A stretch of 64,000 nt of DNA, from NCBI GenBank assembly GCA_003165795.1, contig PMWW01000186.1, positions 29,227-93,226 of the forward strand. The letters are read 5' to 3'. Each line of letters opens with the position of its first letter. Positions within the stretch are counted from its first letter, which is position 1. This document shows positions 23,012 to 27,948 of this stretch, in pieces. This stretch comes from Acidobacteriaceae bacterium (lineage in GTDB: Bacteria; Acidobacteriota; Terriglobia; Terriglobales; Acidobacteriaceae). Below the pieces are notes generated by a model that saw only the letters and a program-made list of their open reading frames with translations, was not told the origin of the DNA and made no database searches. The translations under genes were made by a program, and so were the position numbers.

Positions 23012-23083
23012 GACGACTGCCTTGGGTTGACCGGGCTGCGCACGCGGCCTAACATTACCGCCAGCGGGACCGAGGTCCTCGGC

Positions 23084-25501
23084 ATGGTTGGCCAGGTAGT
23101 CTCCCACTATCACATCGTGGGGAAACTCGGTGGTGGTGGCATGGGGTTGGTCTACGAGGCGGAAGACACCCGTCTGGGCCGCCACGTTGCGCTGAAGTTC
23201 ATTCCAGAAAATCTAGTCAACGATCGCAAGGCCCTGGACCGCTTTGTGCGCGAAGCCCGCGCCGCCTCGCAGTTAAACCATCCCGGCATCTGCACCATCT
23301 ACGACATTGAAGACGTCGACGGCCAGCCCTTCATCGTCATGGAGAAGCTGGAGGGCGTCAGCCTGAAGGACCGCATGCGCGGCGAGCCGATGGAGGTGGA
23401 GGAGATCCTCGACATCGGTATCCAGGTGGCGGATGCGCTGGCCGCTTGTCATGCCAAGGGAATCATCCATCGCGATATCAAGCCGGCCAACATCTTTCTC
23501 ACCAAGAGCGGGCAGGTCAAGATCCTCGACTTTGGATTGGTCAAGTTGTCAGGGACCCAGTGGAACGATCCGATGTCGCAGGAGGACCCGCTGTCGGTGG
23601 CCGGAGACATATTCGGCACCGCAGTCTACATGTCGCCGGAGCAGGCGCGCGGCGAAGAACTCGATCCGCGCACCGACTTGTTCTCCCTCGGTGTCGTGAT
23701 CTACCAGATGGCGACCGGCAAGAAGCCCTTTGCCGGAAACAATGCCGTCACCACGCTGGAGGCGGTGCTCAACAAGAAGCCGACGCCTCCGCTTAAGCTC
23801 AATCCGAATCTTCCGCCCGATCTGGAAGGCATCCTGGGCCGGGCGATGGAAAAGGACCGGGGCAATCGCTATCCCAATGCGTTGGCAATGAAGTCTGATC
23901 TGCAAGCGCTGAAGAAGGAAACTGATCCCGGCTTAACCACTAGTGGCCGGATGCGGTCACCTTTTCCTTATCGCATTGCGACCAGCACATTTCAAACTTC
24001 CAGCAGGCTACAGACCTATCTGCTGCTGGCGGTCAGTGCGGTGCTGGTGATGGTGCTGACGCTGGCGGGACTGTGGTGGTTCAAGCACCGTCAGGGCGCG
24101 GGTGCAAGCGCGGCGAAGAACACGATTGCGGTGCTGCCGTTGCAAAACGTAAACGGCGATATCAGCGTGGATTTCCTCCGCTTCGCGCTGGCCGACGAAA
24201 TCGCCAACGTTCTGACTTACACCCGAACCCTCGACGTTCGTCCTTCTTCGCTCACGCGAAAGTTTGGAGGCAACGATGTCGATCCCCAAAAAGTCGGCCG
24301 CGAGTTGCACGTGGCAACTGTGCTGACCGGACACTTCTTGAAGCAAGGCGACAACCTGCTGGTCACCCTGGAGGCGATCGACGTTCGCGACGACCGCTTG
24401 CTGTGGCAGACCAACTTCACCGCACCCGCGCAGGATCTCATCGCTCTGCAGTCCGACATGGCGGCCCAACTCCGCCAGGGATTGCTGCCGACGCTGGGCG
24501 TGGCGGGCGGACTGGTCGCTACCGGAACTCGTCCCCAAAATCCCGAGGCTTACGATCTCTACCTGCATAGCCTGGCGCTGCCTCATGATCCGGGACCGAA
24601 CAAGGATGCCATCGCGGTGCTGCAGCACGTGGTGCAGATGGATCCCCGCTACGCGCCGGCCTGGGAGGAGCTGGGTCTGCGGGCCTACTACGACGCTACC
24701 TATTCGAACGGTGGCGAAACCATGTATCAACTCTCCAACCAGGCTTGCGAGCGGGCTTTGGCGCTCGATCCGAATCTGACCGTCGCCGCTGGCCAGTTGA
24801 TCACCAACCGCGTGGAGCGGGGCGAGTTGGGCAAGGCCTATCAAGCCGCGCAGGCGCTGGTCAAACGCCGCCCGGAAAGCGCCCAGGCCCACTTCGTCAT
24901 GAGCTACGTGTATCGCTATGCGGGGATGCTGGAACAAGCTGCCGGCGAATGCGATACGGCGCTCGCCCTCGATCCCGGCAATTACGTCTTCCGCTCCTGT
25001 GCCTGGGCCTTCATGGAGCTGGGCAAGACCGATCGAGCTGCGGATTTCATCCGCCTGGACGCCGGCTCGCAATGGGCCGCCTATATCACGCCGTCACTTC
25101 TCTTGCGGGCAGGAAAGATTCCAGAAGCGAAAGAAGCCGTGAAGCGGATGCCGACGGCCCCGCGCTATCACCGCGATTTGCTGGAAGCTTGTTTGCAACT
25201 GCGGCCCGCGTCGGACCTGGACCGCATCGCACGTGAAGCGGAAACCAGTTTTCCCGCCGATCCCGATCCCGAGACCTGGTATTACGAGGGATCGCTTTTT
25301 GCCTACTGCGGAAAAAAGCAAGCGGCGCTGCACCTGCTGCAAAGCGCGGTCGAGAACAACTATTGCGCCTATTCTAACCTGCTGTCCGACCCGCTGCTGG
25401 CCAAGCTGCGCGCCGATCCGGACATCGATAAGCTCTTGACCTCGGCCCATCAGTGCCAGGAGGATGCGATCGGGGCCTCGAACCGGGCGCCTGGCCGCTG
25501 A
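23084..25501 (+). CDS. Membrane Ser/Thr protein kinase with TPR sensor domain
   Basis: The protein (805 residues from ATG 23084) has a Hanks-type kinase domain at about 8-280: [24 protein letters not shown], catalytic loop [20 protein letters not shown], and [22 protein letters not shown] membrane helix at about 305-327 follows ([21 protein letters not shown]), then a FlgO-like domain and TPR helices to the end. It phosphorylates Ser/Thr on partner proteins; the periplasmic TPR region likely senses or binds another protein. A TTG at 23027 is an alternative start. It may be co-transcribed with the CDF gene. Confidence 0.88.
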
Positions 25502-25643
25502 GCCGCCCGGCATTTAGACTTGGCCGTTTTCCGTTAAACTTGCCGGTTTCTTTGCTGCCCACCGGCTTCCATGCAACTCGTGATTTTCCGCTTGCTTCTG
25601 TATTAGGAGGAGTAAAATTCAGTTTAGAAGAGGGCTGTAGCTG

Positions 25644-25670
25644 CGGACGAAATTGCTCCGTCCGGAGAGG
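25644..25670 (+). promoter_or_regulatory. Candidate leader hairpin near the ribosome site of the HPF-sigma gene
   Basis: CGGACG (25644-25649) can pair with CGTCCG (25659-25664). Alternatively CTCC (25656-25659) can pair with GGAG (25664-25667), the probable ribosome site. The two pairings exclude each other. This may be chance. Confidence 0.3.
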
Positions 25671-25677
25671 CCTTAGC

Positions 25678-26712
25678 ATGAATGTTCAGATCAGCTACAA
25701 GATTTCCAAGACACCCGACCTCGAAAAACTCATCAACCAACAAGTGGAAAAACTGGGCCGCTACCTCCAGGTATTTCGTCCTGACTTGGTGCACCTGAAG
25801 GGCGCGGTCGAGGAAAACTCGCGTCACGGTTTCGATGTGTCGCTGAATCTGCGGCTGGCCTCGGGACAAATGGCGGCGCAGGAGAGCAGTGCAACGGTCA
25901 TCGCGGCCATCAAGGCTGGGTTCGAGGACCTGAAGGAGCAGTTGAACAAGCACAAGGAGTTGTTGCGCAAGCAGCACCAGTGGCCACGCCGTCGCGGTCG
26001 CGGAAGCGTGGTTGGCACGGTCCCCTTCGAAGACACCGTGGCGGCGGTTAAACCGGAACAAATTTCTTCCGGCGATATCTCCCAGTACGTGAACGTCAAT
26101 CTGCCGCGATTGAAGCGCTTTATCCAGCGCGAACTGACGCATCGTGAAGAGGAGGGCATCCTTGAGTTCGGCCAGGTCGAAGTGGAGGATGTGGTCAGCG
26201 AAGCCATCGCCAACGCTCTCAGCGAGCCGCCCGGCAAACCCGAGCGCATAAAGCTGGAGCCCTGGATCCACCGTCTGGCAATGCAGGCGATCGACAGCCT
26301 GGCCTTCGACGGTGGCGGCGACGATCAGGTCCCGCTGGAGCGTTCGCACGGGACGCAGAATGTGCTGGCCAGCGACGAAGCCCGGCTGCAATTCCACCAG
26401 CCGGACGAAAAGCTGTTCGAGGAAAACGTGATTCCCGATCTCGCCGCCAACAATCCCGAAGAATTGGCGGCACGACACGAACTCATCGACCTGGTAGAGA
26501 CGACCTTGCGCGAGGCCGGGCGCACCGAGCGGGAAGCTTTCATCCTGTACACGGTGGAAGGTTTCACCCTGGAAGAGATCGCCGATATCACCAACCATGC
26601 AGTGGAGGAGGTGCGCGCGGCCATTGGCAAGGCCCGCGAACATCTGCAACGCGCCTTGCCTATCAAAGACCCTCTGAAAGACAGGCTGGTGGAGTATTCC
26701 AAGAGCGCCTGA
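25678..26712 (+). CDS. Ribosome hibernation factor (HPF/RaiA)-sigma-70-like fusion protein
   Basis: Residues 1-100 of this 344-residue protein look like the HPF/RaiA fold (first residues MNVQISYKISKTPDLEKLI, then RHGFDVSLNLRLASGQM and SATVIAAIKAGFEDLKEQL), which binds the 30S decoding site. After a basic linker (PRRRGRGS, 103-110), residues 134-210 resemble sigma-70 region 2 (VEDVVSEAIANALSE, EPWIHRLAMQAID) and 268-328 resemble region 4 with a helix-turn-helix (REAFILYTVEGFTLEEIADI). HPF proteins normally end near residue 100-190 with a dimerisation tail, not a sigma part. GGAGAGG eight bases before ATG 25678 fixes the start. A gene for an eRF1-like protein follows 69 bases later. The joint function is inference. 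Confidence 0.75.
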   Translation: MNVQISYKISKTPDLEKLINQQVEKLGRYLQVFRPDLVHLKGAVEENSRHGFDVSLNLRLASGQMAAQESSATVIAAIKAGFEDLKEQLNKHKELLRKQHQWPRRRGRGSVVGTVPFEDTVAAVKPEQISSGDISQYVNVNLPRLKRFIQRELTHREEEGILEFGQVEVEDVVSEAIANALSEPPGKPERIKLEPWIHRLAMQAIDSLAFDGGGDDQVPLERSHGTQNVLASDEARLQFHQPDEKLFEENVIPDLAANNPEELAARHELIDLVETTLREAGRTEREAFILYTVEGFTLEEIADITNHAVEEVRAAIGKAREHLQRALPIKDPLKDRLVEYSKSA

Positions 26713-26781
26713 TTCAGGGGGCTGCCGGGCGTCCCCCTCATGCAATCGCAAGACGAGACAACTTGAACAGGAGAAACCGGA

Positions 26782-27948
26782 ATGATCACACGAGATGACA
26801 TCCGAGAACTCGCTAACTTCCAGTCACCGGAGGGTTGCGCGATTACCTTTTACTACCAACCCTCGACGCTCCTCAACAAATCGCATCGCGAAGAAGCCAT
26901 CCTGGTGAAAGACCTGATCCGCGACGCTTTGCGGGAGGTGGAAAAGCATGGCAAGAACGGCCGCACCCGCGCCGACCTGGAGCGTATCAACCAAATGGTT
27001 GACCCGGTCCGGGGCAATGGAGGCAAGGCGAAAGCCATTTTTGCCTGCGGCGCCCAGGGATTCTGGCGTGAATTCGACATTCCCGCCCAGCTGTTGAAGC
27101 CGAAGGTTGCGATTAGCCAGCGCTTTCATCTGAAGCCACTGGCTGCGGTGCTGGACGGCGAGCAGCGCGCCCTGGTTCTACTGGCCGATCGCACCAAGGC
27201 GCGGGTCTTCGAGATGGTGAATGACAGCATCACCGAGAAGGAAGACTTCATCAACGAACTCACGCGACGGGGCAAGAGCGACGGCTACGCCGGCTACGAC
27301 GCCGGCCATGCCGAGCGCAAGCAGATGAACGAAGCCATGCAGCACTTCAAACTGGTTGCCGAGCACATCGAGCAATACTTCGAGCGCGGCGGCCGCGACC
27401 GCTTGCTGATCGGCTGCCGGGATGACGTGTGGTCCGAGATCGAGCCGCATCTGCAGTCGCTGGCCAAGCAGCGTTTAGTCGGCCACTTCCGCATCGATCC
27501 CAAAGTCGCCACTCCCGAACAGGTCAAGCAAATGGCGCGCGATCATCTCGCCGAGTACAACACCGGGGTGAAGCAGGACCTCATCCGCGAAGTGATCGGC
27601 GAGGCGCATCGCAACGGACGCGGCGCCATTGGATTGCGTCGCGTCCTGCGCTCGCTGGAGACCGGCGAGGTCTTGACTCTATTGCTGGGCTCGAATTTCC
27701 AGGCCCCCGGAGTGAAGTGCTATCACTGCGGTCATATGGACCTGCATGCGGCCCCGGAGTGCGCGGTCTGCGGAAAAGAGAACACCGAATTGGAGGACAT
27801 CGGCGACGCCATGGTGGGACACGCGATCCGCACCGGCGTGGAACTTGTTTATGTACCCGACGACGAAGAGTTCGATCGCATCGGACGGATTGCCGCTCTG
27901 CTGCGCTTCCGCGCAGATCAGAACACGGCGGAGAAAGCCGCCAGCTAG
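26782..27948 (+). CDS. Bacterial eRF1-like protein (baeRF family)
   Basis: The 388 residues follow the layout of archaeal/eukaryotic release factor 1: an N-terminal domain, a central domain (about 120-250, LVLLADRTKARVFEM, GRDRLLIGCRDDVWSEIEPHL), and a C-terminal L7Ae-like domain ending in IGRIAALLRFRA. The peptide-release GGQ loop is replaced by GYAGYDAGHAER (168-179). A zinc ribbon with Cys313, Cys316, Cys327 and Cys330 is inserted near the C-terminus. Such proteins are thought to act on stalled or inactive ribosomes. It is probably co-transcribed with the HPF-sigma gene. Confidence 0.75.
   Translation: MITRDDIRELANFQSPEGCAITFYYQPSTLLNKSHREEAILVKDLIRDALREVEKHGKNGRTRADLERINQMVDPVRGNGGKAKAIFACGAQGFWREFDIPAQLLKPKVAISQRFHLKPLAAVLDGEQRALVLLADRTKARVFEMVNDSITEKEDFINELTRRGKSDGYAGYDAGHAERKQMNEAMQHFKLVAEHIEQYFERGGRDRLLIGCRDDVWSEIEPHLQSLAKQRLVGHFRIDPKVATPEQVKQMARDHLAEYNTGVKQDLIREVIGEAHRNGRGAIGLRRVLRSLETGEVLTLLLGSNFQAPGVKCYHCGHMDLHAAPECAVCGKENTELEDIGDAMVGHAIRTGVELVYVPDDEEFDRIGRIAALLRFRADQNTAEKAAS

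Follow-up and report, generated by a model that had tools for sequence, protein, structure and literature searches.

Balon and RaiA are ribosome-hibernation factors that have been found on one ribosome; the gene most often found next to that of Balon is RaiA, and alternative sigma70 genes are also listed among the neighbours of Balon (PMC10901736). Operons combining HPF and baeRF genes were likewise known previously (PMC6514570). In E. coli, hibernation of the ribosome and hibernation of RNA polymerase are co-regulated, as described for Rsd and RMF (PMC6904343). Here we analysed a 64,000-nucleotide stretch of contig PMWW01000186.1 from a soil bacterium of the Acidobacteriaceae (the window), in which a gene for an HPF/RaiA domain fused to a sigma-factor-like module is followed by a gene for a Balon-type protein. 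The literature we searched held no description of an HPF-sigma fusion. With some reservation, we favour a reading in which the fusion joins HPF docking to a sigma-derived arm that binds protein and not promoters, and acts together with the Balon-type protein on idle ribosomes.

The fusion shares with the HPF/RaiA family (PF02482) the fold and the basic helix-2 motif of its N-terminal 100 residues. In contrast to long HPF, it has no C-terminal dimerisation domain (PF16321) and carries the sigma-derived module in its place. The archaeal HibA (PMC13324472) is also an HPF fusion; the present protein is bacterial, and its second module is a sigma-like pair of domains, not CBS. With extracytoplasmic function (ECF) sigma factors (TIGR02937) it shares the sigma2/sigma4 fold, sequence similarity and Trp196, but it differs by its lost promoter-reading residues, its acidic domains, its QPDE linker and the fusion to HPF. 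The sigma-like domain of PhyR is likewise degenerate and without DNA-reading residues. However, the fusion has no receiver domain (no Pfam match), and its acidic E-V-V-D-E face is kept, whereas this face is missing from the PhyR used for comparison (L146). The protein encoded next to the fusion shares with Balon/baeRF10/Msmeg1130 (PMC10901736, PMC6514570) a Pfam match, the fold, the absence of GGQ and an HPF gene as neighbour. It differs in that this neighbouring HPF is a sigma-like fusion, and in scoring far under the equivalog cut-offs. Moreover, baeRF family 10 is noted to keep the loop Gln, whereas the protein in the window has none.

Architecture of the fusion and its Balon-type partner

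The original prediction, made from the sequence, placed an HPF/RaiA-type segment in the first 100 residues of the fusion, then a basic linker, then sigma region 2-like and region 4-like segments. All four were recovered (table). In Pfam, PF02482 (Ribosomal_S30AE) matched residues 4-95 with an E value of 1.8e-9 (38.6 bits against a cut-off of 23.7), and Sigma70_r4_2 matched residues 283-323 over its cut-off (E 2.4e-7). The NCBIfam sigma70-ECF model TIGR02937 covered residues 135-327 (49.2 bits, cut-off 42.9). A profile search of PDB sequences returned sigmaE (7.7e-14) and ribosome-bound HPF (3.6e-9).

The AlphaFold2 model, for which the 58 aligned fusion sequences were the input, showed the beta-alpha-beta-beta-beta-alpha HPF fold in residues 1-100, with a predicted local distance difference test (pLDDT) value of ~90. 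Three helices (131-158, 169-181 and 190-211) made up the sigma2-like part and four helices at 260-326 the sigma4-like part, both with pLDDT ~85, and the linker between the two parts was disordered and acidic. In Foldseek, the N-terminal part matched HPF/RaiA structures with target TM scores of 0.8-0.87. The best matches included 6h4n_x (0.87) and 8rd8_D (0.82), the latter being the RaiA from the Balon-ribosome complex. The sigma-like part matched ECF sigma factors (TM 0.62-0.63). Because the Pfam and NCBIfam homology, AlphaFold2 and Foldseek agree, the HPF-sigma-like architecture is real.

The same domain architecture was found in all 58 aligned sequences, which were 24-76% identical to the window protein, and the ATG start was conserved across all homologues. 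No stop codons interrupted the matches in the window's family. Within the genus, the HPF, sigma2, linker and sigma4 segments were alike under purifying selection, with ratios of nonsynonymous to synonymous change (dN/dS) of mostly 0.1-0.3, although synonymous sites were near saturation in places. An artefact in which unrelated frames had been merged, or a dead gene, is thus excluded by the conserved architecture and the selection on each segment, and its probability is negligible.

At the end of HPF helix 2 (QLNKHKELLRK), residues H92, K93 and L96 were invariant in alignment set A1. This conserved motif supports a predicted role of the domain in binding the small subunit and stopping translation. 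It is probable that the fusion acts on idle ribosomes through its HPF domain.

The second gene starts 69 bases after the end of the fusion gene, as originally described, and its product, which had been called eRF1-like, could be assigned more specifically. PF18854 (baeRF_family10) matched with an E value of 1.4e-18 (68 bits against a cut-off of 27.1). The AlphaFold2 model (pLDDT 84, pTM 0.75) had a three-domain eRF1-like fold that was closest to Balon: the best Foldseek match was 8v9j, the ribosome-bound Msmeg1130/Balon (TM 0.79), and aRF1 scored well below. Against the NCBIfam equivalog for Balon-type proteins (MSMEG_1130 family), the protein reached 58.1 bits, far under the cut-off of 480. 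Both sequence features noted at first sight are conserved. GYDAGH was kept across the window's family, with GGQ and the loop glutamine missing, and C313, C316, C327 and C330 of the zinc ribbon were invariant in 23 aligned sequences. By sequence and fold the partner is Balon-like, and by analogy it may bind the A site. The earlier idea that the eRF1-like protein deals with idle ribosomes is supported, in the specific form of a Balon-type hibernation factor; Balon and RaiA are known to share a ribosome (PMC10901736).

Features of the hibernation locus in the window (positions in the window; aa, amino acids; AF2, AlphaFold2)
Feature	Position	Strand	Basis
Promoter-like element TTGCTT-N15-TAAAAT, ending GG[TA]GTA[AG]AAT	25592..25618	+	Family conservation; putative function
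Leader hairpin by ribosome-binding site GGAGAGG	25637..25671	+	7 genus sequences
HPF/RaiA + sigma-like fusion gene, 344 aa	25678..26712	+	Pfam, NCBIfam, AF2, Foldseek
HPF/RaiA domain, residues 1-100	25678..25977	+	PF02482, AF2, Foldseek
Basic linker PRRRGRG, residues 101-130	25978..26067	+	Low confidence, pLDDT ~50
Sigma region-2-like three-helix domain, residues 131-211	26068..26310	+	AF2 helices
Linker motif FHQPDEKLFEENVIPD, residues 239-254, consensus FxQPDExLxxEDxIxD	26392..26439	+	Family alignment
Sigma region-4-like domain, residues 259-327	26452..26658	+	Sigma70_r4_2, four AF2 helices
Balon-type (baeRF family 10) ribosome-hibernation factor, 388 aa	26782..27948	+	PF18854, AF2, Foldseek
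GYDAGH loop replacing GGQ	27292..27309	+	Conserved in window's family
Cys4 zinc-ribbon motif C313/C316/C327/C330	27718..27771	+	Alignment

Promoter-reading residues in the sigma-like half

The 58 fusions were compared with 14 genuine ECF sigmas, of which one is rhizobial and the other 13 belong to the genome of the window, in an alignment whose register was fixed by the common motifs WLYRIxxN and VxSRxxRA. In Mycobacterium tuberculosis sigmaH, N88 acts as the DNA-opening wedge while S182 and R186 read the -35 element, and mutation impairs transcription (PMC6411747). The wedge Asn (residue 203 of the fusion) was found in only 2 of the 58 fusions, compared with 11 of the 14 ECF sigmas. Ser or Thr at the S182 position occurred in four fusions and 11 ECF sigmas, and Arg or Lys at the R186 position in 12 and 13, respectively. 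The complete recognition motif was seen in none of the fusions and in five of the ECF sigmas. The charges also differed. Sigma4 carried a mean net charge of -4.7 in the fusions against +1.9 in the ECF sigmas (p 5e-8), sigma2 -3.5 against +1.3, and the recognition helix 0.6 against 3.9. The linker between regions 2 and 4 of the fusions had a charge of -8. In distant members the recognition helix was acidic or partly deleted. A homologue on a Roseomonas mucosa plasmid (L177:3001-4113) has lost part of the sigma4 helix-turn-helix, which argues against promoter reading.

Other parts of the sigma scaffold were retained, including W196 (55/58), L290 and the E-I-A core. The fusions also conserved R151 (56/58) and an acidic face in sigma region 2.2, with E175 in 51 of the 58 and, at position 174, where ECF sigmas conserve Gln, Asp in 49. 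The linker motif was well conserved, with P242 in 53, D243 in 42, E244 in 47 and D254 in 48 of the 58 sequences. In ECF sigmas, the linker between regions 2 and 4 is acidic, mimics RNA and threads the active-centre cleft of RNA polymerase (PMC6372665). On this comparison, in which positions of the fold are common to both groups but those for promoter reading are not, the C-terminal half probably does not work as a sigma that reads promoters, and the simplest account would be a sigma-derived module in which promoter reading has gone and protein binding has been kept or gained. After the residue and charge comparison, an ordinary ECF sigma was no longer the main view of this half.

Possible role of the fusion and competing explanations

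In the reading that we favour, the gene pair would be a ribosome-hibernation operon. The HPF/RaiA domain would dock on the small subunit, in the mRNA/decoding channel, and the Balon-type protein would sit in the A site of that idle ribosome, in the manner of RaiA and Balon. The C-terminal half would be a former ECF sigma turned into a protein-binding arm, which retains the sigma2/sigma4 scaffold, the acidic face of sigma region 2.2 and the acidic, conserved QPDE linker. On a parked ribosome, this arm would most likely capture a protein that otherwise meets sigma factors. The first choice for this ligand would be RNA polymerase core, so that transcription and translation would be silenced together, and an anti-sigma factor the second. 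We regard RNA polymerase core as a tentative choice, and a complete bridge that parks the ribosome and captures the core, with plasmids carrying the same device as orf11 (see below), as less likely still. The fusion would be a variant among the hibernation factors with HPF domains, such as HibA (PMC13324472), possibly with a much larger implication. Were the arm to bind RNA polymerase or an anti-sigma factor, a direct molecular wire would lead from the state of the ribosome to transcription. When all roles considered for the arm were ranked, RNA polymerase core came first, followed by a purely ribosomal arm, an anti-sigma factor and finally a working sigma.

The last of these is close to the mechanism originally proposed, in which ribosome docking would hold or release the sigma part. 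The fusion of an HPF-type docking domain to a sigma-related module stood up to analysis, but a promoter-reading sigma was weakened by the lost residues. In place of a sigma tethered to the ribosome, the mechanism is better described as a hibernation factor whose sigma-derived arm does not read promoters. A functional ECF-type sigma, held by idle ribosomes via HPF and released to transcribe a recovery or stress regulon, would be in keeping with the TIGR02937 score over the cut-off, the sigma2 and sigma4 folds, the retained W196, L290 and E-I-A core, and the occurrence of alternative sigma70 genes in the neighbourhood of Balon (PMC10901736). However, the promoter-opening and -35-reading residues are lost, the recognition helix and the domains have turned acidic, the sigma4 helix-turn-helix is incomplete in one member, and the promoter-like element of the operon is single-copy in the genome when up to one mismatch is allowed. 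A working sigma is thus quite improbable.

Loss of DNA-reading residues from the sigma4-like helix is also seen in the compared PhyR, and a PhyR-type mimic might soak up an anti-sigma factor and so free a stress sigma, either while ribosomes are idle or only when the protein is off the ribosome. Most members scanned matched PF22233 (PhyR_sigma-like), two members have a STAS-domain gene (anti-sigma-antagonist type) immediately after them, and the sigma half of the model was closest to sigmas held by anti-sigma factors (5wuq and 5uxx, TM 0.62-0.63). This likeness is only a hint because the placement of the domains in the model is uncertain (pTM 0.45). Furthermore, we noticed no anti-sigma gene next to the fusions of the window's family, and members in several phyla had no shared anti-sigma partner that we could find. 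NepR-type anti-sigma genes were not noticed among the neighbours read, in which no dedicated search was made. We consider such a mimic unlikely. Somewhat less doubtful is an additional ribosome-binding or dimerisation arm with no role in transcription, comparable to what long HPF has in its C-terminal domain or HibA in its CBS module. HPF domains joined to a second module that contacts the ribosome are known elsewhere (HibA, PMC13324472). All segments of the fusion are under purifying selection, and the long HPF of the same genome has PF16321, which the fusion lacks. Against such an arm, the half is acidic (sigma2 -3.5, linker -8, sigma4 -4.7), which is unfavourable for contact with rRNA, and its most conserved new motif lies in the linker that in sigmas runs through RNA polymerase.

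Several observations weigh against the hibernation factor with a sigma-derived, non-promoter arm. R320 was retained in 42 of the 58 fusions and position 313 was Arg in 31, so the sequence may be compatible with an unusual promoter recognition. The change of Q174 to Asp means that binding to RNA polymerase core may itself have changed. The fusion model had a pTM of 0.45, and the orientation of the HPF domain relative to the sigma-like domains is uncertain. Some fusion members have no Balon gene nearby. When orf11, a distant relative in a mobile resistance island, was deleted from E. coli MG1655 with the island, resistance to heat and to chlorine was no lower and lipid oxidation was unchanged, in assays that did not cover dormancy (PMC8407380).

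Distribution, gene neighbours and mobile relatives

The expectation that the same fusion would occur in other Acidobacteriota was confirmed. Of 37 genomes sampled from the window's family, 25 carried it, as did 13 of 14 genomes of a sister family of the same order. A sample of 396 Acidobacteriota genomes yielded 24 genomes at E <= 1e-15 and added nine further families outside the order. Counting the sample's families with the window's, the sister and one family of the class, the fusion is found in at least 11 Acidobacteriota families. Outside the phylum, one of 298 Gemmatimonadota genomes had the fusion and one of 299 Pseudomonadota genomes had a full-length match; absences are soft because the search scores few candidates per genome. 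None of five Myxococcota genomes matched, a sample too small to inform the distribution. A restriction of the fusion to Acidobacteriota, considered at one stage, was wrong, given the Gemmatimonadota and Pseudomonadota members and the 288 plasmid records described below.

In the window's family, the Balon gene came after 25 of 29 fusions. All 21 sampled genomes of the family with this Balon gene also had the fusion, with the genes adjacent in the loci examined. In total, 21 genomes had both genes, four the fusion alone and 12 neither (Fisher p 1e-6, uncorrected for relatedness). The same pair was seen in four more genomes of this family, and the fusion was followed by a Balon gene in two other families as well (L076, L112). 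The pair is thus not a peculiarity of one genome: it is conserved across the window's family and scattered elsewhere, but it is not universal. In the sister family (L062, L064, L070, L071 and others), a LysM/SLT lytic transglycosylase gene directly followed the fusion, and the two genes almost touched or overlapped in places. Other members adjoined STAS-domain, chaperone or aminotransferase-like genes. Because the neighbours differ between families, Balon is a frequent and not an obligatory partner. Two members with degraded HPF domains (L120 and L126) had a STAS-domain gene of the anti-sigma-antagonist type downstream of them. In a third Acidobacteriota family (L078:3975-5526), an unfused HPF of 122 residues preceded a baeRF family 10-like gene, an order that may represent the older arrangement.

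The Pseudomonadota fusion adjoined a gene for a large Clp-like ATPase and also had an Hsp20-like gene close by. A plasmid search with this sequence returned 288 records, 266 of them at >=80% query coverage, mostly from Klebsiella, Enterobacter, Acinetobacter and Escherichia. Relatives in Alphaproteobacteria shared their islands with genes for Hsp20, FtsH, Clp and HdeD, and those in Burkholderiaceae adjoined GroES, GroEL and DnaK genes. A standalone sigma-like protein with a YQPDE motif and no HPF domain was also observed in another Pseudomonadota genome (G857; L155/L163).

A distant full-length relative was recognised in orf11 of the tLST/LHR heat- and chlorine-resistance island of E. coli, Klebsiella, Enterobacter and Acinetobacter. 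Orf11 is a hypothetical protein encoded between hdeD-GI and trx-GI (L167:9001-10146 on an E. coli plasmid, L168, L173 and L176), and its identity to proteins whose function is known has been described as below 30% (PMC8290217). Hhalign of the acidobacterial family against four orf11 sequences gave 99.5% with an E value of 2.2e-22 over 332 columns. The separate parts also matched their counterparts (HPF 85%, E 5.8e-6; sigma2 96%, E 2.4e-9; sigma4 90%, E 1.7e-6), whereas crossed controls gave E values of 0.3-0.6. In addition to the full-length profile match, orf11 shares an HPF-like N-terminus with the fusion, and the QPD linker motif was identical in all distant members aligned, including the proteobacterial members and orf11. 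Identity in the profile alignment was ~21%, and the HPF and sigma4 parts were more degraded than in the fusion. A Pfam scan of orf11 found no HPF domain, and the homology is accordingly distant. The stretches read around orf11 contained no Balon gene. Among 5,426 complete E. coli genomes, 144 carried orf11 over at least 80% of its length. The link would give a first hypothesis for an unexplained gene of E. coli genomes and of many Klebsiella and Enterobacter plasmids, and it makes the question testable in laboratory E. coli K-12.

Upstream of the fusion, the pattern TTGC[TG]T-N11-GG[TA]GTA[AG]AAT was conserved across the window's family. A search of the whole genome that allowed up to one mismatch found no second copy, and a regulon marked by this element was rejected, the single match being the operon's own. 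The leader hairpin had 12 pairs, two of them with compensatory changes, and a consensus energy of -15.7 kcal/mol in the seven genus sequences; it could regulate translation. No known RNA family in Rfam matched the leader.

The window's genome encodes two further PF02482 proteins: a canonical long HPF in an lptB-rpoN-hpf arrangement (L160:5047-5643), which carries PF16321, and a third at a separate place (L161, near 1017-1298). Directly upstream of the operon, a large Ser/Thr protein kinase with TPR repeats is encoded at 23027-25501 of the window, and a frame homologous to it was recognised near one other fusion locus only.

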